Assembly (NCBI GenBank): GCA_030054735.1
Contig: JASGVX010000063.1
Span: 1-48,854, forward strand
Direction of reading: 5' to 3'
Length of the DNA stretch: 48,854 nucleotides
From: Methanobacteriota archaeon
Lineage (GTDB): Archaea; Halobacteriota; Methanosarcinia; Methanosarcinales; Methanosarcinaceae
Positions within the stretch are counted from its first letter, which is position 1; each line of letters opens with the position of its first letter. This document shows, piece by piece, positions 20,463-36,515 of this stretch. A program made the position numbers and the translations under genes. Under the pieces are notes generated by a model. The model ran no database searches and had not been told where the DNA came from. It saw only the letters and a program-made list of their open reading frames with translations.

Positions 20463-22385
20463 TCAGACTTTCGGCATTCCTATCCCGACAAAAACCAGTT
20501 TTGTTTCTACGGGTATTATGCCTGCCTCACTCAGAGAGATGTCTTTTTTGCTCATCTCTATCTGGACTTGTCCTTTGTCAAGCCCTGCTCCGGCCATGTA
20601 TTCCATAACAAGTTTTCTTCCGAGGGATTCTGCATATTCCATGGCTTCCATGTAGTTCCCGAAAGTCTCCCTACCCTTCGGTGAAAAGAGAAGGACAAGC
20701 CTTTTCCTGTCTTTTGAATAGGTATTTTTTATCAGGATTTCAATCCTTTTTATGCCTTTTCCGACAACAGCTCCCACAGCATTTCCTACTTCCGAGTATT
20801 TTGGGACCAGAATCTCAGCGTCGAGGATCTGCTTTAATTCCTCTTTGTAGGCTACAACAGGCCCTCCTATAAGCACGACAGGGATCTTCATCCTGAACTG
20901 TGCAAACCTATCCGAAAGGATTATTTTTTCTATTTCCTGCGAGGGGACATCTTTTAAGACAAAGGACATCAGGTTCAGTGCCATATTCTTTGCAACGTCC
21001 TTTTTTATGCGCCTGCAGAGTTCAAGGTGGTCCGTCTGTGTGTAGCGTTCGAGAAGTTTCGCCCCGGCGACTGAGGCTTCCAGGTTCCAGCCCCTGTAGT
21101 CCCCAAGCACGTGAAGGGCATCGGTTGGAGTAAAGCCAATTGCCTGGATAAGGCGTTTTCTTATGAGGGGGTCAAGAAGTCCAGGGGAGAGAGTTTTCTC
21201 TGTTTCCCAGAAGATATCATTAAGGGAAGTCGGAGTGTCTCCTATCCTGTCAAAGAGTTTCTGCTCGTAACTCCCAAGGCTTGAAGCCTTTACCCCAGTC
21301 CTGACAAAAAACTTTGTAGGCTGCACATTCTCTTCAAGGTGCATGATACCTGGGACCCTCCCTTTTTTCAGGACTTCAAGAAAGCCGGGATATTTGACAG
21401 CTGCAATGCAGAGAGGGATGACCCGGCGGGGACCTATGTTGATTTTCATGTTTTTAACCCATACATGGCTGTCCCCTCCCATTGCTGAAGTCTCCATGCG
21501 GATAGCTTTGACCTTGGTCTGCCAGCCCCCAACCACAGCCCCTTCCGGGCAGAGTTCAGGAAGCCCGTTTTCGAGCATGGAGACATCCGTACTTGTCCCT
21601 CCAAGATCTATAACTGCACAGGTCTCAAGCCCTGATAGGTAGGACGCCCCTACGAGGCTTGCAGCAGGCCCTGAAAATATTGATTCAATGGGTTTTTCCA
21701 GAGCTTCGTTGATGCCTACTACGGAACCGTCACATTTGAGCATAAGCAGCCTGGCATCCATTCCCCTGCGCTTTATCTCTTCTTTGATTGAGAGGATAAA
21801 CTGGCTTGCAATAGGGATAAGCTGGGCGTTAAGGTAGGCTGTAACTCCTCTTTCGTATGCACCAAGGTCAAGGGAAAGCTCGTGCCCACAGACAACAGGA
21901 AGCCCGGTAAGTTCCTGAATATGGGCCTTGATTGCGAGCTCATGTGCAGGGTTCCGGATGCTGAAGTATGAAGAAACTGCAAAGGCTGAAACCCTGTCTT
22001 TTACTTTCCTTACAAAAGCCTCAACTGCTCCCATATCAAGGGGAGCCAGTTCAGCTCCGTGATGGTCGTGCCCTCCTTTTACTACGGTATAAAATTCAGC
22101 CTGCATTTTTTCAGGGATTTCATAATCTCCTACAAGGATCAAACCCACAGGATAGCCTTTTTTTTCAAGGATTGTGTTTGTTGCAAGAGTTGTCGAGACT
22201 GATACCATTTTTACGTCTTTTAGATATTGCTCATCCAGCCCATCAATGGAGTTTTTAATCCCTGTAAGAAGGTCAGGGTATGTTGTAAGAGCTTTGTTTG
22301 AGTCCATCACTCTGCCGTCGGAATCCCGGATAATGATCGAATCGGTGTATGTCCCACCGGCATCTATGCCAAGACTGTAAACCAT
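20463..22385 (-). CDS. Hydantoinase/oxoprolinase A-family protein, paralogue 2
   Basis: The 640-residue protein is closely similar to the downstream paralogue over its full length. It has the same HyuA motifs: GIDAGGTYTDS at residues 6-16, VSTTLATNTILEK, GHELSLDLGAYERGVTAYLNAQL, and CAVIDLGGTSTDVSML around 256-271. It is 25 residues shorter; the C-terminus ends KLVFVGIGMPKV. The gene and its upstream region form one unit of a tandem duplication of about 2.1-2.2 kb. A third copy survives only as codons for the C-terminal end at about 22556-22614. Substrate unknown; a role in amide or methylamine-related metabolism would be speculation. Confidence 0.85.
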   Translation of the reverse strand: MVYSLGIDAGGTYTDSIIIRDSDGRVMDSNKALTTYPDLLTGIKNSIDGLDEQYLKDVKMVSVSTTLATNTILEKKGYPVGLILVGDYEIPEKMQAEFYTVVKGGHDHHGAELAPLDMGAVEAFVRKVKDRVSAFAVSSYFSIRNPAHELAIKAHIQELTGLPVVCGHELSLDLGAYERGVTAYLNAQLIPIASQFILSIKEEIKRRGMDARLLMLKCDGSVVGINEALEKPIESIFSGPAASLVGASYLSGLETCAVIDLGGTSTDVSMLENGLPELCPEGAVVGGWQTKVKAIRMETSAMGGDSHVWVKNMKINIGPRRVIPLCIAAVKYPGFLEVLKKGRVPGIMHLEENVQPTKFFVRTGVKASSLGSYEQKLFDRIGDTPTSLNDIFWETEKTLSPGLLDPLIRKRLIQAIGFTPTDALHVLGDYRGWNLEASVAGAKLLERYTQTDHLELCRRIKKDVAKNMALNLMSFVLKDVPSQEIEKIILSDRFAQFRMKIPVVLIGGPVVAYKEELKQILDAEILVPKYSEVGNAVGAVVGKGIKRIEILIKNTYSKDRKRLVLLFSPKGRETFGNYMEAMEYAESLGRKLVMEYMAGAGLDKGQVQIEMSKKDISLSEAGIIPVETKLVFVGIGMPKV

Positions 22386-22555
22386 TTTTTTAACTTCCTG
22401 TTTTTTATTTTGATATTTTCGGAAAACTCATAATTTGCGATTTTAGAGATTTGATTATTATATATTTTACTTAATTTATGTACTATTTGTTAGCCATTAT
22501 GTAATATTTGCAATATTGAGGGAAAAAATATAAACGTTCCTGTGCTGCCTGGAAC

Positions 22556-22614
22556 TCAGACTTTAGGCATTTCTATCCCGACAAAAACAAGTTTTTTTCC
22601 ACGGGTTTTGTGCC
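22556..22614 (-). pseudogene. 3' remnant of a third hydantoinase A copy
   Basis: Reading the minus strand, codons for KLVFVGIEMPKV followed by TGA match the last residues of paralogue 2 (KLVFVGIGMPKV) with one change. The sequence downstream of it matches the spacer beyond paralogue 2. Upstream the homology stops abruptly at about 22614, where unrelated sequence leads to the truncated BREX gene. It is the stump left by a deletion. Positions 22615-22714 show nothing recognisable. Confidence 0.75.
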
Positions 22615-22714
22615 ATTGTCAACGTTATTTTGGATCCTTGAGCTTTTCTCAATGGAAATTGGGGAATTTTAATCCGGCTAAAATGAGGAATTATTCAGCG
22701 GCATTGACAAAGTG

Positions 22715-22776
22715 AGATTGTTTTTAAAGACCTCATTATCTAATTGTAGAAATGGTTTGAGTTTTGAGACAGACTG
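22715..22776. mobile_element. MITE element A, truncated copy fused to pglZ
   Basis: One terminus is preserved: reading the minus strand from 22776, CAGTCTGTCTCAAAACTC followed by AAACCATTTCTACAATT, as in the full copies at 27055 and 36355 with one base change in the terminus. Inside it, TTAGATAATGAG and CTTTAAAAACA still match with a small deletion. The other end is missing. It supplies the last codons and the stop of the truncated pglZ frame. Confidence 0.75.
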
Positions 22777-23153
22777 TCAAACTCACTTTTGATGTCTGAA
22801 ATACGGCTGATTTCAAATATGGAAGAATAGAGCTGGATATCAAAAAGCCAGTTAGATTCGTGTGATCTTTCTTTGTCTGGACAATAGATTAAATAATTTG
22901 ATTCTTTATCTTCAATTTCAAGGAGTTTTTTGGTTTCAAAGTAATTGTTGTCAAGGATATAGAATTTGATGTTGTTTTCTTTCAGTATCTGTATTATTTC
23001 TTCAAGCTCTTCCCCGGGAGCATTCTTCTCCTGATCCCAGGCAGTTTTATCCCTGTCGTACCAGAAAACTATTTTTCTTTCCTCATAGTCTTTGAGTTCT
23101 GAAGGGGAAAATTTTTTGAGTATACTATTACTGGTTTTTTCTACGTTAACCAT
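22740..23153 (-). pseudogene. pglZ: Truncated BREX phosphatase PglZ (N-terminus only)
   Basis: PglZ is the alkaline-phosphatase-superfamily core protein of BREX phage defence and is normally about 800 residues or more. Here about 125 residues remain: the N-terminal KKFSPSELKDYEERKIVFWYDRD segment, LEEIIQILKENNIKFYILDNN and SNYLIYCPDKER, which match the start of type A PglZ. At 22777 the frame runs into one end of MITE element A and stops 13 codons later. The phosphatase domain is absent from the window. It lies downstream of pglX in the order expected for BREX type 1, though separated from it by an ATPase gene and a pseudogene. Confidence 0.8.
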
Positions 23154-25070: not shown

Positions 25071-25477
25071 TTAGGAAGTCTCTTCTTTTTCACCTGTGGT
25101 TCCTGATAGAACATATTCTGTTCCTTTTCCTGTAGTGCCGATTTGTTCAAATATCTTTAAAGAAACTAATTCTGCCAGGTTCCGAGAAGACGTTCTCTTA
25201 ATTGTGTTGGAAATTTCCTGATATTCCTTGTATGTAATCTTTCCCTTTTCTTTTGCGTAGAATACAGCTTTAATCTGCCATTCATTAAGACCGATAGTTC
25301 TAAGATATTCTTCATTTAAAATCCATTTTTTGAAGATTACACGAAAACCCTGATACTCTTCAAAAACCGGCTCGCATTAGCAAAAGCTACGGCTGATTCT
25401 ACGGTTCTCTCATCGAATTTTTCTTTGAATTCGAGCGTTTCGGATTCGCCGGATTTGATAAGGGTTTGGAGGTTCAT
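25071..25477 (-). pseudogene. AlbA_2-domain (Schlafen-like) ATP-binding protein, internally deleted
   Basis: The ATG overlaps the pglX stop as ATGA. The first ~34 codons match the start of AlbA_2 proteins (SGESETLEFKEKFDERTVESAVAFAN), where the protein should continue for several hundred residues. Instead the sequence jumps, in another frame, to the C-terminal part: EPVFEEYQGFRVIFKK, then a winged-helix-like region (ITYKEYQEISNTIKRTSSRNL) and the stop at 25071-25073. So a large internal segment has been deleted and the frame broken. Such genes accompany some BREX loci. Confidence 0.7.
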
Positions 25478-26982
25478 ATCTTCCCCACCAACCCCTCAAA
25501 CTTCTTATAATTCACCACAACCCCATCATCCAGATCAATCTCAATCATCTGATCCGCCTTATGCTGAAGCAGTTCATCATACTTAACGAGTTCATTGATC
25601 TTTTTATTGAGTATAGCAAGTTCTGATTCGGCTTTTCCACTATTCTTAGAATTTTCAGTAATTTCTTTTTCAAGAAGCGACCTGTGAGAGTCAAGCTTCG
25701 ATTCAAAGTCCAGTAAGTAATCTATCCTCATCTTCGCTAAGGTAGTTTTATCATACCTGTGCATGTAAACGAGCGCATTGAACACTTTTCCTTTTTCCGA
25801 AGAAGTAAAGAGCCAGTAAATCGGCCTCTTCTTATACATCTTTACGTGATCTTTGTAGAAATCCCTCAGGAAATAATTCCGGATAACCTTTTCAGGAGCT
25901 TCATTTTTCTTCGAAAGCGCCCCTGCAATAAAGTCCAGGTTTTCCGAAAGTGTTTCCGCCCCGAAAGTGAGCTTCAAAAACTCCTTGAATCTGCCTACAA
26001 TGTCGTCCGTATAATATTCGTCATCGAGGATCGGAATAATATTATCTTCGTCCGGCAGGAAAGAAGCTCCTGGAACTTTTTCTTTAAAATCAGCAAGTTT
26101 TTCTCCCTGATTTGCGAGTATCGGCCCTTCTTTTTCAAAAGAATACCTTCCAAACATGCAGCCGACAGCATAGGAAATTAATTCTTTTACGGTATCGGTA
26201 AGCAGTAAAGCTTCCAGTTCTTCCTCAGTTTTTTTGTCGCCATAGCGGTAATATGGGTTGCAGGTCAGCGTGATTTCAGAAAGCGGTACATCCGGCGTCA
26301 GTTCATCCTGCAAACCGTAGGCTTCGATGAAAATGCGGTTATTCTCTTCCTCCAGCCGCTGCATTTCAAGAGTCATTTCTTTCCAGTGAGAGCGGAGTTT
26401 GATGTAGGTTTCATGGAGAGTTGGATGGAGATATTCTGACTTTAATAGTGGGAGAGTGGTGAAATCCCAGGAGGTTTCGTAGGAATCCCAGTCTGATTTT
26501 GATATATTAAGTAAACTATTAGCAATTAATTGTACTGTAGGTTGAGTTTCAATTCTGAATGCTGGGAGTGCTCTTAAATTACCAACTTTAAAGTGCAAAG
26601 TTGGATTTAGGACTGACGTCAATCTACTTACTATTTTGGAATTTAAATAAGATATTATACACTCTACAGATACCTCTAAAGTCGGAAAACCAGCTGGGTT
26701 AACACTATCAAATTTATGATATTTAGGTTTTAGCCTAGCTGAAAAAATACCTGATGTAATGTCAGACCAAGTAAAACCATCTTTTGAAAAAGTTTTTTCC
26801 CCTTGTATCCCAGAATTTTGCTGCTCTTTTATTTTCTTACCATCATCTTTCCATAAAATAAGATACTCGAGGTTTCCATACCATTTTCGAAATTCTCCAC
26901 CTTTATGATATATATACCAAAAAGAGTTGTCTTTAGACTGGATATTTGTTTTATCTAATGATACCTCTTGCCATAATCTCAA
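25474..26982 (-). pseudogene. pglX: C-terminal half of BREX methyltransferase PglX
   Basis: This is the continuation of the pglX gene beyond the MITE. Coding sequence starts right at the MITE edge ([15 protein letters not shown], at 27050) and runs through [14 protein letters not shown], a segment typical of the target-recognition part of PglX. The first start codon is at 26982, giving 502 residues. The C-terminus has a coiled-coil ([17 protein letters not shown]) and ends FEGLVGKI. It contains the substrate-recognition and C-terminal regions but no catalytic motif. If translated separately it could not methylate DNA alone. The stop overlaps the start of the AlbA_2 remnant. Confidence 0.88.
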
Positions 26983-27054
26983 AAATCTCTCATTGTCAGA
27001 GGATTTTATTCCCTCCGATACAAATATTTGATCGCCTATAAAATATTTCCCTGT

Positions 27055-27215
27055 CAGGCTGTCTCAAAACTCAAACCATTTCTACAATTGGATAGTGAGA
27101 ACCGTTAACTTTAAAAACATGACCACTTAAAACAGAGAAATTTAGATGTGAATTAACCTTATAGTAGAAAAAATTGACACAATTGTAGAATTAACTTTAG
27201 TTTTGAGACAGCCTG
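27055..27215. mobile_element. MITE element A, full copy inside pglX (161 bp)
   Basis: The element starts CAGGCTGTCTCAAAACT and ends with its inverted complement AGTTTTGAGACAGCCTG. Subterminal TTCTACAATTG and CAATTGTAGAA continue the inverted repeat. It is flanked by a 4-bp duplication CTGT (27051-27054 and 27216-27219). Removing the element and one CTGT joins LYT to GKYF in frame. It has no gene of its own, so it needs a transposase in trans. A second copy of the same length lies at 36355-36515. Confidence 0.92.
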
Positions 27216-29136
27216 CTGTATATAATTTTGCAATTAATTCACTCACCCAATACGCAATCGGACTCCCAGGAATCTTCTTGAAGTCGGCGGCGGAGGCGCG
27301 ATAGAACCAGCAACAATTTGAATTTTTGATGGCTTCCAGTGTTTTAGGGGATTGGTTTTCTGCTCCTCGGAAATCAGAGAGCCTAACATAGCCACCTTTA
27401 AAGTTTGAGTAATGAGCATTTTCTAAAGAAAATGTGCATACAGGAATACAGGCAGGCTCAAATGCATTATATTCAAGCTGTGCTAAACTTGTAATAGTGC
27501 AATTTTCGAGGATGTAAGAACGTAAATCTTCATAAGAAGAAATAAACATCCAAACATAAGGAGTGACAAAGACGAGCTGACCTTTTGGCAAAGTTAGCTC
27601 AATATTACGAACCATAAAGGCAGAGAACAGATCAGATTTCACATCAGCATAATTATCTTTAAGGAATGTCTTCAGCCTATTATTCATGCCTTTGCCGCCC
27701 ATATAAGGAAGATTGGCTATGACCACGTGGTATTTCGGGCTGAGGTAGTCAGCTTGTTTCAGAGCCTGCAGGACTTTCTGATGAGTTGAAAGATGGGAGA
27801 GGTTTTCAGAAAGGTTCTTCGATTCCAGCAGGTGTAAAAGATCAGATACATCCTTTGCAGCCGGACGAATAAGAGACCCAAAATTATCGGCTTCTGCGAA
27901 CTGGGACAGAGTAGCTATGTGAGCATTGGTAAAAAGCTCACTTCCAACTGCATCTATATAAGCATTGAGTTCTCCCTGCTCAAAAGTAACGTTTTCCAGC
28001 ATGCAAATATTGGGATAAACCTCTTTATTGAAAAAGCGGCGGTCTTTCCCCCTCGCCTTCATAGTCAGCGCAAAACCTGCAAGTTCCCCTGCACGCCTAT
28101 CAATCTCGATCCCGAAAAGGTTATGGGCCAGGATCATTTCCGGAATTTCGGAAGGAGTGTAGCCTTCTTCTTCGTAAATCGCATACAAGAGGTCAAAAGC
28201 ATAAACAAGCATGTGCCCCGAACCGCAGGCAGGGTCGCATATTTTGATCTCTTCCGGTGAATTAATTTTAAGAAAATCACTTTCCTGCTGTTCAGGTTTT
28301 ATATAATACTCCATCCTGTCAACAAGGCTGGATTCCGGGCGGTTGAGCATCCACAGGCGGCCCAGGGAGTTTTCAACAAGATAACGGACAATCCAGTGAG
28401 GAGTGAAAAGCTGGGTAACAGCAGGGATGTTTTCCTTGCTGATCTTAATATTCTTCTTCAGGTCAGCAAAGACTTTGTCCTTCTTTGGTGCAATATAGTA
28501 CTGGTAGATCCAGCCTATGATTTCAACTTCCTGCCAGTCTTCTTCCGGAATAATTGAGTTCAGGTCGTGCAGAACCGAGCCTGTATGGAGAAGCTTATCA
28601 GGGAAAAGGAGTTCAGTATAGTCTTCGATTTTCTCAAAGAGGAAAGGCATTATTTTGTTCAAATAATTGCAGAGCTTGAGGATCAGGTATTTGTAGAGCT
28701 CTTCGTCTTTATTTTCTGCTTTAAGGTCAAGAACTAAATCTCGGTTAAGGTTCAGGGAATCAAGTTTCAGGGCATTTGTAAGGAGGTCGGGTTCGGGTTT
28801 ATTCGGGTCGCTTGAAGTGAAAACTCTAATATGGTCTGGGAGGCAGCCGTTCATCTCCATGAACTTGAGGGCAAGAAGGCGGTTGAACCAGGTATAGGTT
28901 ACTTCTTCCATGACCTGTTCGTAGCCTTTTCCCTTAATCTGCTTCACAAGCTGAGATCTCTGGTTTTTGATTCTTGAATTAAAGACTCTGCCGTTAATAA
29001 CAACTGAATCGGCATGTTCCTCCACGGCATGGATTTCTTCAGGAAAAATTCCATAATAGGCTGCCTGGCTCCTTACTTCTGCACTTAACTTCTCCCTAAC
29101 CTTGTTTGAGAATTCGATAATTTTTGCTTTGTCCAT
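27142..29136 (-). pseudogene. pglX: N-terminal half of BREX adenine methyltransferase PglX, interrupted by a MITE
   Basis: PglX methylates adenine in BREX recognition sites to mark self DNA. I place the start at the ATG at 29134-29136 (MDKAKIIEFSNKVREKLSAEV), matching the family; an in-frame start 36 codons upstream is less likely. Motif I is CDPACGSGHMLVYAF; motif IV reads Asn-Leu-Pro-Tyr (VIANLPYMGGKG) instead of Asn-Pro-Pro-Tyr. Native coding ends at 27216; the frame then enters the MITE and stops at 27142. Without the MITE the gene 25474-29136 would encode about 1165 residues, normal for PglX. Confidence 0.9.
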
Positions 29137-29369: not shown

Positions 29370-31688
29370 ATGTGCATGTCCAGGCAGCTTGCAGATACAA
29401 TAAATCGGATTCTTGAAACTTCTCTGGTGCAAATCAATACGGGAAAAACCAAAAAGGCATTTGAAAACCTTGCAAAAGCCGAAAAGCTTTCTGAAAAGGT
29501 AAAAAGATCGGACTACCAGTGCTCAATCCTTATGTTGAAAGGGAGAGCTTTTCTTGCCGAGCAGAGGAATGAAGAAGCCCTGCAGGAGTTCCAGAAGCTA
29601 ATGGAATTTTCTGTTCCTCTCTTCCTGGATGCTCCGGAAGAAACAGTCCATCAGTACTATGTCTACAATTCATTTGGTTTTACCATAAAAGCTCTCTCCG
29701 AGATAGGCAGTGTTTCTAAAATGGAGGAGTACTGTGGCAGGAATAAAAAATATTTCGACAAAATTATTGCTGCTTATGAAGAGCTCATTGCCCGGGTCCC
29801 GGACAACCAGGAGTATATACAGAACTACCTGAAAGTCCTGGAAAATATCATGACCTATCGCCTGGACGTAAATAAGCTTGAAGGCGAGCCCGTGCTTTTC
29901 GAAAGAATCGTGCAAAATTACGGGAGATTATTTAAACTGGCCCCCAGAAACCTGGAATTGTTTAAGAAACTGCAGCTGGTGACCGAACAATTTAAAAATA
30001 GTTGTCTATTATCCAGGAACTTCGAAGCCGCAAACAGGGCCTTTGGGCAGATAGAAGAAATCTATTCCGGAATTCTCAAAAAAGAACCGGGACACATGCT
30101 CGTCTCCGCTCATCTTCTTTTCTTATACGAAAACTCCGCAGACCTGTACGCAAAACTTGGGAAAATCGAAAAAGCCGAAGAAAGCTTGCTCAGGGCCCTT
30201 GACTACCTGGCAGAAAAACAGCGGGCAAGTCCGGGAAATACTACTTACTCCCGGCAGCAGGGCGAATTTTACCGGATGCTCGGCAGGGCATTTTATGAAG
30301 AAAGGAACTCTGAAAAAGCAGCTCAATACGCCGGAAAAGCTCTCGAAATTCTCATGGAATTAGCCGGGAAAAATCCGGAGGACCTGCACTATCAGTATGA
30401 AATTTCAGAAGACTTTACCGAACTCGGAGAACTGTTTAAAGATATTGAAGATATAGAGCGTGCAAAAGAATGCAGTCTGCAGGAGATCAAAATCTACGAG
30501 AATATCCACGCAAGAGACCCCGAAGACGAGATGAGCGAAGCAAATATAGCCGCCACCCTCGACCAGCTAGGGCACCTCTATGCAGATAGGGGGAAAACGG
30601 AAACTGCAAAACAGTACTATAAAAAGGGTCTTGAAGCCTATGAAAAACTGTCTGAATCCTATCCCGAAGATATCGACCACGAAGTAAGGATCGCAAATAC
30701 CCTGGGTTACATAGGGGAACTGTATGCGGACTCTGAGCCAGAAACCGCTCTGAAATACTATAAAAAAGCTTTCGGCATCCTTGAAGATGTGGTACAAACA
30801 TTCCCGGACGTTCCAGTTTACAAAGAAGACCTCATCCATACCCTCGGGTACCTTGAATCCCTGGCTTCAGGGCAAGCTCAATACGAAAGCGCAATCCAGT
30901 ACCGTGAGCGCATTACAGAACTGAGCCTCCAGCTTGCCAGCGAAAACCCCGAAAAATTTGATTACAAAAAAGAACTTGCCTTTTCCTTCAAACACTTGGG
31001 GACGCTTTATGAAAAAGCAGAAAAACCGGAACTTGCAAAACAGCAGTATTCAAAATCAGCCAGCGTCTTCAGGCAGGTCTTACAGGATGAAAACGAAAAA
31101 GATCTCATAAAAGACCTTCTAACTCTGGCCCTCCAGAAGCAAGCAACTATACTCATCCATGAAAAAAATTATAGTCTTGCAAAAGAATACCTGTCCCTTC
31201 TCCGTGATTACTATGAAGCCCTCTACGAAAAAGACCCCGAAAAATTTGTAAACTGGAAAGGCATCTGTGAAATTAGGACCCTATACGGGGTTTTACATAA
31301 ATCCATGGGTAATTACGACACAGCTATCCAGATCTACAAATCAGTCTTCTCTATCCTGAATAAGCATCCAGTATCTGATCCAGATAACCCTGATTACCAG
31401 TCAATGTTCGCTGTATTATATACCCAGCTGGGAATTGCGTATCATCTGGCAGACGAGTATGATAAATCAAAAGAAGCTTTTGAAAAAAGTATATCCATAA
31501 ACGCAAAACTGCTTGATGAAGAAGCTGAATATTTCTTATACATGGCAGATATGGCAGTAGCACTTACAAATTATTCAAAGTTACTCACAAACATGGGCAT
31601 GAAAAAAGAAGCAGAAGAATACGCTGCAAAAGCAGACGAGATAAAGGAAAAGGTAATGAAAAAATATAGCTTTGATGAATTACAATAG
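29370..31688 (+). CDS. Tetratricopeptide repeat protein
   Basis: The 772-residue soluble protein is made almost wholly of TPR-like helical repeats; clear units occur around AEESLLRALDYLAEKQRASP, AKQYYKKGLEAYEKLSESYP, ALKYYKKAFGILEDVVQTFP and AIQIYKSVFSILNKHP. No enzymatic domain, signal peptide or membrane segment is visible. It lies between brxC and pglX but on the opposite strand, so it is not part of their transcript and splits the BREX gene order. Its promoter must lie in the 233-bp gap shared with pglX. Large TPR proteins are numerous in Methanosarcina; a defence role is possible only by location. The start may be the ATG at 29370 or two codons later. Confidence 0.82.
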   Translation: MCMSRQLADTINRILETSLVQINTGKTKKAFENLAKAEKLSEKVKRSDYQCSILMLKGRAFLAEQRNEEALQEFQKLMEFSVPLFLDAPEETVHQYYVYNSFGFTIKALSEIGSVSKMEEYCGRNKKYFDKIIAAYEELIARVPDNQEYIQNYLKVLENIMTYRLDVNKLEGEPVLFERIVQNYGRLFKLAPRNLELFKKLQLVTEQFKNSCLLSRNFEAANRAFGQIEEIYSGILKKEPGHMLVSAHLLFLYENSADLYAKLGKIEKAEESLLRALDYLAEKQRASPGNTTYSRQQGEFYRMLGRAFYEERNSEKAAQYAGKALEILMELAGKNPEDLHYQYEISEDFTELGELFKDIEDIERAKECSLQEIKIYENIHARDPEDEMSEANIAATLDQLGHLYADRGKTETAKQYYKKGLEAYEKLSESYPEDIDHEVRIANTLGYIGELYADSEPETALKYYKKAFGILEDVVQTFPDVPVYKEDLIHTLGYLESLASGQAQYESAIQYRERITELSLQLASENPEKFDYKKELAFSFKHLGTLYEKAEKPELAKQQYSKSASVFRQVLQDENEKDLIKDLLTLALQKQATILIHEKNYSLAKEYLSLLRDYYEALYEKDPEKFVNWKGICEIRTLYGVLHKSMGNYDTAIQIYKSVFSILNKHPVSDPDNPDYQSMFAVLYTQLGIAYHLADEYDKSKEAFEKSISINAKLLDEEAEYFLYMADMAVALTNYSKLLTNMGMKKEAEEYAAKADEIKEKVMKKYSFDELQ

Positions 31689-31789: not shown

Positions 31790-34700
31790 TCACACCCTTA
31801 TGTTCTTTTCCTTGAGGATTTCCATCAATTTATCTCTGAGCTGTGTGATATATTCCTCAACATCTGCTTCGGTTTCCATCATTTTTTCGCATCTAAAAAA
31901 TGCTATATTGCTGATAACTTCAGTATTTCTCTGAGGGATTATTGGAGGATTTGGTGTTGTTTCTACTTCCTTGCCACCATCTGCAGGTTTAATTCCCGGA
32001 GTTTCCGGGTTATCCTTATCCTTATCGTTTTTCTTGTAGGCGTTCTTTTGCTGCTCTTCCCGAATAATCTGCCTCTCCCAGTCTATCTGCCTCTCTCTGA
32101 TAGTCTGCCTCTCCCGGTCTATCTGCCTGTAAGCTTCCACCCTCTGGGAATTTATAATCTGAACCTGGCTCTGGACAAGAGCGCAGTCCTCAGCGTCTTC
32201 TATCGTTCTTTCTATCACATTGAAGAGACTGAACACTGTTTTCTTGAAGTCGTTGGAAAATATTTCGTCTGAAAGTTCCCTTTCAAACTCTTTCGTAACC
32301 AAATCAAGGTTTTCTTTGACCTCTTTTTTCCGGGCAGAAAGGGCCTCCTTAATTGCCGCTTCTATCCTCTTTTCCAGCACGGAAAGATTTTTGATCTCGG
32401 AATAGGGTTCCTTCAGGTTCAAAATTCTGTTTACTTCCTCAATATCTGCGTTTGTTTCTTTACCAAGGAACTGGATGTTTCTGGAGTAATCCCTGTACTT
32501 GTGGGCAAGCCTCCTGAAGATCTCAACCTGGGAGCTGTTAAAGAAGTTCTTCACATCCACTGCATCAGCATGCAGCTCTTTAAATTCGGTCTTTCTGGAG
32601 GCAACGGCTCTAAAAAAAGCTGAAGGGTCAGAGTTTTCTGTCAGCTCTTTCAGGAATTTCCTGTAAGCTTCTATCCGGGCTCTGCCAGGGAAGCTTCCTT
32701 CTTCTTCATATCTGCCTTCGATTACCTGCAGGGCTGAAAGCTCTTCCCCGAATATCTCCATTACTTTTTTATAGAGTTCGCCTTCTTTTTCTGGCAAGCT
32801 CAGTTTTTCAAAAAGGTCATTAAGTATCTTCTTTACGGCTTTGAGGTCCTCTTCTCCAGTCTTCTCCCTGATTTCTATGACAACTTTGTCAGCTTCATCC
32901 CTTCTTGTCAGGTATTTTGCCGTAGCACTCGCATCATTAAACAGGTACTCGGACTGATAGCGGAGTTTAATCTCTTCTCTGAGGTAAAGAATTGCCACAA
33001 GCCCTGAAATCGTCATATCTTTCCAGCCGTAGGGTTTTTTCGTGAAGCGTTCCTTTAAATCGCTTAACAGGACCCTTCCGCTTCTCCCGTACTTCAGCTG
33101 GATGTAGTCAAGCACTTCCTTTAAGGCAAGCCTGTTTATCTCACTGCCTCCGACTCCGAACCTCTCAAGGTCGTCCGAACGCAGGACTCTAAGAACTTCG
33201 CTCTCGTTTTCATAGTCCTTTGTAACATATCCGGCTTTGCTGTAAACATTCTGTATAAGGAGGTCGAGCCCTTCCTTTATGCGCTCTTTCGGGCTGGATT
33301 TATCAGGGGTTACTTCCTTATTGTCAACAAACACCCTTGAATCCGAAACGCCTTTCTGGACCAGATCCAGGGTTTTTGCTCTTGCACTGTTAGCATTCTG
33401 CTGCTTTGTGGAAAGAATATTCTGGATTTCCACGTTGTTCCGGTTTGAGGAGTTCTGCTTGAGGTATTTATCTATTTTCAGATATGACCTGATCTGGTCG
33501 ATTAATTCGTCTTCCGGGAGTATGAAAAGCAGAGTATCCGTTGAATCAATAATGCTTAAATTTTCACCGCTCAGGGACTTCTGGCTTCCTTTTTTACTGC
33601 AATAATGGTCTGAAAGAGGGGTCAGGAACTTGATTGTAAGGTCTGCACCAGAGACGGCTTTTACCCTATCATCAATAGCTTTGTTAAACTTGTATTCCTT
33701 ATAAGAAGCCTGGCAGATCCCCTGTTTCTGATCATAAAGCATCGTATGGATTTCTTCAAGAATCTGATGATCTTCGATTTCTACTCTTTTGATGTCCTTG
33801 TTAATCTCCTGTTCCACATTTGTCAGGAAATAGTACTTATCTTCGGACTTGCTTATCAGGGTCTGGTCTTCGAGCTTTCTCAGGGACTCAACGATTCTTT
33901 CTTTTAGTTTGAGCTTATCTTCATCAACCGAGGAAATGGAGAGCACTATCAGGTTATCGAGGTTCGGCTCAATTTCCGGAATGCCCCTGATCATAAACAG
34001 GATTTCCAGAAGTTCGCAGTCATTATCATTAAGAAAATCATTCTTCCGAGCATGAGAAATTGTTCTTGCGATGATAGGGTCAAGGAAGCCTTCAATAGTC
34101 TCATAGAAGGCATGGAAAGGAATTAACATCCCTACATTATTCTCGCAGTAGTTCTCAGTCGACTCCTTAAAGGCGCTGAGCATCGACCTTTCCCCTTTTG
34201 CCAGGTGCTTGCCCGTAAATCCGGTTTCTCTAATCCTGTCAAAGACCTTCTGCACAAGGTTGAACTGATAGGGGACAAAAGGATATACATTTACGAAGTC
34301 TTTTTCGTTCTTGTAGACCTTTATTTCAGCACGGTTTGAAAACGCAAGCAAATTTCTGAGTATTGTTTGCTTTTCCGCGTAGTATGAAGCAAGAACATCT
34401 CTGTACTCCTCTTTCTTATTCAGGATTCTCTTCTTGATAACTTCATCAACGTTGGCACTGGTAAGTGCCAGCCGGGTGTTAAAACGTCCCTGAATTTTAG
34501 AGAAGTCGTAGCCCTTTACATTTTCTTTTGTAACAGTATCAATGTCAGCCTGCGAAGTAACCACAACCCAGGCTTTTCCCATGAGTTTAGTCCCGAGATC
34601 TTCAACAATGGTCTGAAGATTAAGCATCAGCTCGCTATTTTCTCCGATGTACTGCCCCACTTCATCCACCAGAAAAATTACCTGATGGTCTTTTCCTTTC

Positions 34701-35464
34701 GACATGCAGTACTTATCGAGCTTACTTGCAAATTTCTCAACGCTAAAAGTAAAACTTGCTCCATCGCTTTCAAAAAGCCTTGAAGCAGCTTCCCTGGTCA
34801 TAGAGCCGCAGTTTGCAAGGGCTTCTATAATGTCGTCCTGCTCAAAACTGTATGCGACTCTTCTTTCTACCCAGGGGTCTCCATTTATGCGCTCAAACTC
34901 GGCTTTGAAAGGTTCGTAAAGTCCTTTTTCCTCAAGCTGTTCTTCAAGTTCTGCGATCCAGAAAACATCTCCCAGGTACCCTCTCATATCATTAAAAGCC
35001 CTCATGAAGATGTTTACAATCTGCTCGTCGCCCTTGTTTGCCGTATTTGCTTTGGAATCAATATTAAAGAGAATAACATCTTTAGTGCCTGTAGTAACGG
35101 CTTTCTCGATATTGGCAAAAATAGAAGGGTCTGTTATTTTTTCCCTGAAAAATTCGAGTGCTGTCTTCCCACGGACCTCTCTATTCGCCAGTAAATACGA
35201 CAAAATTTTGAGGAAATGTGATTTTCCTGAACCAAAGAACCCTGAGATCCAGACTCCTATTCTATCTGTGGGTTCTTCAAGTGCTTCAGCATAATTTCTG
35301 AAAAATATATCAAAATGCTTTCGGGATTCCCCTGTTACCACATACTCATCAAGTTCGGTATAGACGCTCCTTTCGTCTTCCTGATCAACCTTTATTACCC
35401 CATTGATATCCCTTCGGATATCTTTTTCGAATAAATCTTCTATTTTTATTTCTGTGGCTGTCAT
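31790..35464 (-). CDS. brxC: BREX ATPase BrxC
   Basis: BrxC is the large AAA+ ATPase core protein of BREX type 1. The protein starts MTATEIKIEDLFEKDIRRDINGVIKVDQ, as in the family (ATG at 35462-35464; a GTG three codons earlier is possible). It has about 1224 residues, the usual length. Walker A is GFFGSGKSH near residue 75-83, and Walker B is HQVIFLVDEVGQYIG. The C-terminal half is rich in coiled coil and ends with a Gln/Arg-repeat stretch (RQTIRERQIDWERQIIREEQQ). The frame is intact with no sign of decay, unlike pglX and pglZ. It follows brxB after about 120 bp. Confidence 0.93.
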   Translation of the reverse strand: MTATEIKIEDLFEKDIRRDINGVIKVDQEDERSVYTELDEYVVTGESRKHFDIFFRNYAEALEEPTDRIGVWISGFFGSGKSHFLKILSYLLANREVRGKTALEFFREKITDPSIFANIEKAVTTGTKDVILFNIDSKANTANKGDEQIVNIFMRAFNDMRGYLGDVFWIAELEEQLEEKGLYEPFKAEFERINGDPWVERRVAYSFEQDDIIEALANCGSMTREAASRLFESDGASFTFSVEKFASKLDKYCMSKGKDHQVIFLVDEVGQYIGENSELMLNLQTIVEDLGTKLMGKAWVVVTSQADIDTVTKENVKGYDFSKIQGRFNTRLALTSANVDEVIKKRILNKKEEYRDVLASYYAEKQTILRNLLAFSNRAEIKVYKNEKDFVNVYPFVPYQFNLVQKVFDRIRETGFTGKHLAKGERSMLSAFKESTENYCENNVGMLIPFHAFYETIEGFLDPIIARTISHARKNDFLNDNDCELLEILFMIRGIPEIEPNLDNLIVLSISSVDEDKLKLKERIVESLRKLEDQTLISKSEDKYYFLTNVEQEINKDIKRVEIEDHQILEEIHTMLYDQKQGICQASYKEYKFNKAIDDRVKAVSGADLTIKFLTPLSDHYCSKKGSQKSLSGENLSIIDSTDTLLFILPEDELIDQIRSYLKIDKYLKQNSSNRNNVEIQNILSTKQQNANSARAKTLDLVQKGVSDSRVFVDNKEVTPDKSSPKERIKEGLDLLIQNVYSKAGYVTKDYENESEVLRVLRSDDLERFGVGGSEINRLALKEVLDYIQLKYGRSGRVLLSDLKERFTKKPYGWKDMTISGLVAILYLREEIKLRYQSEYLFNDASATAKYLTRRDEADKVVIEIREKTGEEDLKAVKKILNDLFEKLSLPEKEGELYKKVMEIFGEELSALQVIEGRYEEEGSFPGRARIEAYRKFLKELTENSDPSAFFRAVASRKTEFKELHADAVDVKNFFNSSQVEIFRRLAHKYRDYSRNIQFLGKETNADIEEVNRILNLKEPYSEIKNLSVLEKRIEAAIKEALSARKKEVKENLDLVTKEFERELSDEIFSNDFKKTVFSLFNVIERTIEDAEDCALVQSQVQIINSQRVEAYRQIDRERQTIRERQIDWERQIIREEQQKNAYKKNDKDKDNPETPGIKPADGGKEVETTPNPPIIPQRNTEVISNIAFFRCEKMMETEADVEEYITQLRDKLMEILKEKNIRV

Positions 35465-35583
35465 GTTTAGCACTCTGAACTATTAGTTTGAATTGGGTTT
35501 CTATATAAGTTAAATTTAATTTTCTGAAAGTTATCTGAAAACTTAAAACTCCCCTATTACAGTAATCCTGAGAATTTCTAAAA

Positions 35584-36156
35584 TTATATTGCTTCTGGCA
35601 TCAAGCGAAAAGCTCTGTAGTAGTTCTTGCTTTTGAATTCACCAAATAAGCTCAGGTCAAGCCCGCTGTACTTTCCAGGATAAAACATCACAAGAGGCTT
35701 TTTTCCCGTCACTGAATGAAGGTTATTAAGGACGGAATGAGCTCTGACAAATGGCCACGCATTTCCCACTCCAGTCAGAAAAATAATGTCGTAGTCTCCC
35801 TGAAGTATTCCAGCTATTTCTTTTTTTGTGACTTCCTGGTTAAGAATTAATCTTATCTTCTCAAGTAAGACATCTGAGCCCTTTTTCTTTTCAAACTGGA
35901 TTATTTTTTCATCGCTAAGCTTCTGACTCAGAATTTTGAGACACAAATCGTACAGGTTAATCTCAATTATTTTTAGAGAATATTTGGTCTTAAAGCCTGT
36001 AACCATCTTTTCAATTGTGTCTCTGACCAGAAGCTCTTTTTCGGGCTCATAATCAAATATCCAGTATGGGATCTCATTTCCCAACCCCTTACATTCTAGA
36101 AAATCCTTTGTTTTTATTTTTTCTTTAAAGAGTTCCAGACGCTCTTCGAGTTTCAT
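35584..36156 (-). CDS. brxB: BREX protein BrxB (DUF1788)
   Basis: BrxB is a small conserved core component of BREX type 1, with unresolved biochemical role. The 190 residues match the DUF1788 family: an N-terminal LEERLELFKEKI helix, PYWIFDYEPEKELLVRDTIEKM, a DIIFLTGVGNAWPFVRAHSVLNNLHS segment and a C-terminal KPLVMFYPGKYSGLDLSLFGEFKSKNYYRAFRL tail. It is complete. The preceding gene in a normal BREX operon, brxA, is absent: 36157-36354 carries no recognisable reading frame and then a MITE and transposase fragments begin. Confidence 0.92.
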   Translation of the reverse strand: MKLEERLELFKEKIKTKDFLECKGLGNEIPYWIFDYEPEKELLVRDTIEKMVTGFKTKYSLKIIEINLYDLCLKILSQKLSDEKIIQFEKKKGSDVLLEKIRLILNQEVTKKEIAGILQGDYDIIFLTGVGNAWPFVRAHSVLNNLHSVTGKKPLVMFYPGKYSGLDLSLFGEFKSKNYYRAFRLMPEAI

Positions 36157-36354: not shown

Positions 36355-36515
36355 CAGGCTGTCCCAAAACTCAAACTATTTCTACAATTGGATAATGAGA
36401 TACGTTAACTTTAAAAACAAACCCACTTGAAACAGAGAAATTTAGATGTGAATTAACCTTATAGTAGAAAAAATTGACACAAATGTAGAATTAACTTTAC
36501 TTTTGAGACAGCCTG
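36355..36515. mobile_element. MITE element A, second full copy (161 bp)
   Basis: It has the same length and about 90% of the same bases as the copy in pglX, starting CAGGCTGTCCCAAAACT and ending TTTTGAGACAGCCTG. Flanks are CTCG and AGAA, so no target duplication is visible; the copy is older or its flanks were rearranged. It abuts the IS1634-like fragment on one side and the upstream end of the BREX locus on the other, where brxA should be. Confidence 0.9.

Follow-up and report, generated by a model that had tools for sequence, protein, structure and literature searches.

The window, i.e. the whole stretch of 48,854 nucleotides that was analysed, contains a BREX locus of type 1 in which several genes are interrupted or incomplete. 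The features of the locus are as follows.

22732..22776, minus strand: relic of the MITE family found in pglX, directly next to the pglZ fragment and made up of the first 45 bp of one MITE end (93% identity)
22777..23153, minus strand: 5' fragment of pglZ with ~125 of the ~900 codons
23380..24894, minus strand: ATPase_2/DUF234 protein, a PDC-S27-like accessory gene
25074..25483, minus strand: what is left of a Schlafen/AlbA_2 gene next to pglX; the deletion at 25373 is internal and out of frame
25474..27054, minus strand: 3' part of pglX, target-recognition and C-terminal region, 526 aa
27051..27054, strand not given: target-site duplication CTGT, left copy, 4 bp
27055..27215, plus strand: 161-bp MITE with IS1182-type ends within pglX, recognised by its terminal inverted repeats, fold, copies and target-site duplication
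27216..27219, strand not given: target-site duplication CTGT, right copy, 4 bp
27220..29136, minus strand: 5' part of pglX, N-terminal methyltransferase region, 639 aa, with 25 more codons into the MITE before a stop
29370..31688, plus strand: TPR-repeat protein between brxC and pglX, on the opposite strand to them, also present in relative L043 (67% identity)
31790..35473, minus strand: brxC, frame intact, matching its model
35584..36156, minus strand: brxB, frame intact, matching its model
36355..36515, plus strand: another complete MITE copy (93% identity), which lies ~200 bp upstream of brxB

The two PglX halves, BrxB and BrxC match the models of BREX type 1, which in relatives comprises brxB, brxC, pglX, pglZ of type A and brxL. 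The PglX halves reach 805 and 610 bits against the BREX-1 PglX model, whose cut-off is 500. In the relatives L031, L098 and L043 the gene order is brxB, brxC, pglX, accessory genes and pglZ; brxL follows pglZ in L031 and L098 and is present where the locus of a relative extends far enough. In contrast to type 1, the locus studied here has an interrupted pglX, a truncated pglZ, no brxL, and no brxA seen beside brxB. Directly upstream of brxB, neither the window nor L098, L031, L045 and L049 showed an ORF of the size of brxA.

The insertion in pglX

The first-pass annotation described a 161-bp MITE between two CTGT repeats, and both the element and the repeats were confirmed at the coordinates listed above. 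The terminal inverted repeats are 36 nt long and 86% complementary, and one strand of the element folds far better than shuffled sequences (z = -4.69). When the element and one CTGT are deleted in silico, the two parts of pglX join into a frame of 3498 bp (25474-29136) with 1166 codons, a count that includes the terminal stop (1165 aa). The joined frame has no inner stop and reads LYT/GKYF at the junction, so the claimed repair of the frame by precise removal of the element with one CTGT was reproduced. In an alignment with the intact PglX of L098, L053, L045 and L034 the joined protein is gapless at the junction, and hence exactly the element and one copy of the duplication are foreign.

The element and the duplication together measure 165 bp, or 55 codons, and do not shift the frame of pglX. 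The protein is thus ended by in-frame stops and not by a frameshift. Four such stops come from the MITE, at codons 665 (TAA), 670 (TAA), 685 (TAG) and 691 (TGA), in agreement with the earlier description of pglX as knocked out. Read-through of these stops with pyrrolysine was considered and rejected, as two of the four are TAA.

The break lies between residues that match ~663 and 676 of the Salmonella PglX (structure 8c45), and the target-recognition domain of this protein is given as residues 662-849 (PMC11341690). Judged by this alignment, the MITE appears to have entered at the edge of the target-recognition domain. The 5' part of pglX could make a methyltransferase module with a foreign tail of 25 residues and without target recognition. 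For the 3' part, the pglX sequence close to the new 5' end offers no ATG or GTG start. The MITE contains an ATG, but stops follow it, and a TTG at 26982, the first start that could be used, would leave out 24 residues.

The MITE family is repetitive and contigs end in copies of it, which might suggest an assembly artefact, either a repeat placed inside pglX or wrong contigs joined at MITE copies. However, the two flanks belong to one gene in one frame, and the duplication they carry is exact and as long as is usual in the family. This makes a wrong join unlikely in pglX and leaves it possible only for the join at the pglZ relic, and we find an artefact as the origin of the insertion barely credible.

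The MITE family and IS1182

The genome to which the window belongs is a draft of 2.88 Mb in 149 contigs, 99.4% complete. It comes from a methane-producing archaeon, probably a Methanosarcina, since the named PglX loci nearest to this one are from that genus. The genome holds at least 40 scored copies of the family, from 127 first-look candidates, and the terminal 15-mer occurs in it 68 times without a mismatch. Both flanks are available for 34 full-length copies. An exact direct repeat of 4 bp borders 12 of these, where 0.3 would be expected, and direct repeats of 5 bp or more do not occur among them. With this copy number and with 4-bp repeats so far above expectation, the MITE in pglX is not a chance pattern, and the identification made in the first-pass annotation stands. 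Elements related to it were found in most genomes of the genus that were searched.

We compared the pglX copy with a family consensus built on 44 aligned rows (40 distinct sequences). It differs at 2 of 161 sites, one private and the other shared with other copies. It is the least diverged of all copies compared, in a sample that was collected with the pglX copy as the query and is biased to its relatives. Given this low divergence and the one private base, the insertion looks young, a reasonable reading that does not date the event, and the knockout looks recent, as had been claimed. In the ~14 kb around BREX there are three MITE traces where ~0.5 would be expected if the genome had ~100 copies; as this stretch was picked with hindsight and the number of copies is not certain, no enrichment at the locus is claimed. 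Elsewhere in the same genome (L147, 2157-2600) a MITE copy is split by ~283 bp of other sequence, a nested insertion.

A possible parent was found in another genome of the genus, the M. acetivorans-like G013, which carries an intact element of the IS1182 type (1707 bp, 2457742-2459448) flanked by a TTAT duplication. It encodes a transposase of 494 aa of the IS1182 family (NCBIfam NF033551, 460 bits, cut-off 270), has the terminal 15-mer at both ends and has the end sequence CAGGCTGTCTCAAAAC in common with the MITE. The MITE and the ends of this element are identical in the terminal 17 bp on one side and 81-87% identical over about 37-43 bp. The 4-bp target duplication is also found in both, whereas the MITE is only 161 bp long, lacks a transposase and resembles the G013 element at the ends only. 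Because of the shared ends and the 4-bp duplications, the MITE is best read as an IS1182 derivative, and a transposase of the IS1182 family probably moved it.

We did not find a complete parental IS1182 transposase in the assembly that contains the window, only pieces, several of them at contig ends. The pieces at contig ends cover residues 293-397, 369-487, 386-493 and 356-397; residues 1-36 and 1-32 are found elsewhere in the genome, the latter piece interrupted by another insertion. It is possible that an intact parent is hidden by the assembly at contig ends. At one place in this genome (L206, 1343-1700) the start of an IS1182 is interrupted by an ISAzo13-like element.

ISAzo13 was also tried as the parent of the MITE, following a lead from L151, where ORFs of the ISAzo13 type lie between two matching ends. 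This candidate was given up for IS1182: the MITE ends are missing from intact ISAzo13 copies of the genus, and nothing in G013, a genome rich in the MITE, matches ISAzo13.

State of the BREX locus

Apart from pglX, the locus is damaged at several other places. The homology to the intact pglZ of L098, L031 and L043 ends at 22777, exactly where the relic of the MITE family begins. When an intact PglZ was used for the search, the truncated fragment was the only match in the genome. A search for the PglZ domain family gave no match in this 99.4%-complete assembly, and the same search finds M. acetivorans, which served as the control. No credible brxL was found in the genome, the BrxL search giving just a stretch of 22% identity with E = 3e-4. 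The AlbA_2 remnant corresponds to codons 2-38 and 362-461 of its homologue in L098, i.e. ~320 codons were lost out of frame. Of the genes that BREX-1 needs, brxB and brxC are present here, while a complete pglX, a complete pglZ and brxL are all missing.

On the other side of the relic, in the region 22350-22776, the pglZ fragment and the MITE relic are joined to sequence that leads to a pair of hydantoinase genes. The closest hydantoinase homologues in G059, G060 and G061 appear, from the contig numbers, to lie on contigs other than those with BREX. The junction between pglZ and the hydantoinase region is either a rearrangement or an assembly join at the repeat. The rest of pglZ may have been removed by an imprecise deletion that began in a MITE. 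In principle the join at the relic could instead be an assembly error at the repeat, and sequence missing from the 149-contig draft, because it was not assembled or not binned, could hold brxL and the remainder of pglZ.

Deletion of pglZ prevents both defence and methylation in type I BREX (PMC12205998, PMC9122589). From the gene content we conclude that BREX function has probably been lost in this genome, and it is very likely that the knockout of pglX by the MITE is a step in the decay of a type 1 BREX locus and not a reversible switch. A non-autonomous MITE of the IS1182 type would have been inserted into the minus-strand pglX by a transposase acting in trans, duplicating 4 bp, and its four in-frame stops would limit the product to the N-terminal methyltransferase module with the tail of 25 residues. 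In this reading the locus is inactivated elsewhere too, with pglZ ending after ~125 codons at another relic of the MITE, and with the loss of brxL and the internal deletion of the accessory AlbA_2 gene as further lesions. It is this inactivation at other places that makes the insertion a step in the loss of defence. The long open frames of pglX, brxB and brxC look as if the decay were recent or some function remained. Additional inactivating changes, which the first-pass annotation had set as a test that could refute its reading, are found in this very genome at the level of the BREX system but not inside pglX. In this interpretation the locus is a defence system caught in the middle of its decay, with one family of mobile elements at two of its broken genes.

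An insertion that preserves the frame is tempting as a switch, a reading that this case corrects. According to the first-pass annotation, precise excision of the MITE could turn the gene back on; such excision, driven by a transposase or by slippage, would restore pglX in some cells and toggle BREX. The frame is indeed exactly restored when the element and one CTGT are removed, but any insertion with a clean duplication would behave in this way, which gives no evidence for a switch. Phase variation of pglX is known in the Pgl system of Streptomyces, disruptions of pglX are reported to be frequent in BREX (PMC9122589), and pglX is also broken in two Methanosarcina relatives, by other lesions. 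However, excision would not restore BREX here since pglZ, which is essential, and brxL are lost: pglZ is truncated, neither a PglZ domain nor a credible BrxL was found, and the AlbA_2 gene is broken as well. No empty site was seen among 59 relatives, where a DNA search with 300 bp of the pglX C half gave weak short matches only, and the assembly yielded no complete transposase. Precise excision of IS elements, moreover, was rarely detected in a plasmid system of Sulfolobus, where imprecise degradation was commoner (PMC4390865). We consider that a reversible switch at this site is highly improbable.

The locus resembles the phase-variable systems of Streptomyces Pgl and of Lactobacillus rhamnosus BREX in that pglX is the gene inactivated. 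The L. rhamnosus system contains a full and a partial pglX together with a site-specific integrase (PMC7513527). In contrast, no dedicated switch, i.e. a recombinase or a repeat tract, was seen at the pglX junction, only an ordinary MITE. The locus also resembles the inactivation of defence genes (cas, RM, Dnd) by IS elements and MITEs, where a mobile element also ends the defence product, and MITEs inside cas genes have been reported (PMC10359306). This source does not mention BREX, and the locus described here has further lesions.

The decay reading could be refined, without being replaced, if the knockout of pglX had been selected because PglX without PglZ became toxic after the loss of pglZ. 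For Pgl, the two proteins have been described as toxin and antitoxin, and cells with a type I BREX grew more slowly once PglZ was lost (PMC9122589). The low divergence of the MITE copy in pglX would fit such selection. However, the MITE relic at pglZ is too short to date, so that either event may have come first, and brxB and brxC carry no knockout. Selection against a toxic PglX is a possible refinement that we hold to be rather unlikely.

Broken and split pglX genes in relatives

In L043 (10001-13488) pglX is broken by a 4-nt deletion and the locus is otherwise long-framed. In L031 (6356-13509) pglX has a frameshift from the loss of one base in an A run, and brxC is frameshifted too. Both are draft metagenome assemblies, and the homopolymer lesion of L031 may for this reason be a sequencing error. 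The MITE in pglX, the deletion in L043 and the homopolymer frameshift in L031 could together suggest that pglX of Methanosarcina is repeatedly turned off by small lesions in an on/off cycle of BREX at the level of the population, with the partner genes regained by recombination with intact relatives. We regard such a cycle as very unlikely.

PglX is encoded by two separate ORFs in 22 of 80 relatives (L031-L110), with the break at a common domain boundary; for 7 others the available sequence reaches the N ORF only. The MITE lies ~25-28 residues downstream of this natural break, and one could ask whether the two halves function here as a split PglX, as in relatives with two pglX genes. However, most natural C ORFs begin at an ATG of their own, ahead of the conserved FYRASAADF motif, while the C half in the window has no nearby ATG or GTG, and its TTG start would cost the 24 residues mentioned above. 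A complete pglZ is also absent, and a functional split protein at this locus has very little probability. Decay stays the preferred reading of the insertion.

The relatives with a split PglX include L032 (9965-15088), L054, L055, L063, L084, L088, L097, L106 and L107. In the natural cases the N ORF has about 600-640 aa and the C ORF about 570-650 aa, and the split is located just before the conserved FYRASAADFKKIPGS motif, between the methyltransferase and the target-recognition modules. The gap between the two ORFs is 1-5 kb and contains further genes of defence type, including Schlafen/AlbA_2 genes, SIR2 with HerA, an AAA gene with a reverse transcriptase, or Fic genes. A quick tree of 71 N domains, read before the careful tree search had ended, requires eight changes of the split state, and at least four of these changes are forced by well-supported branches.
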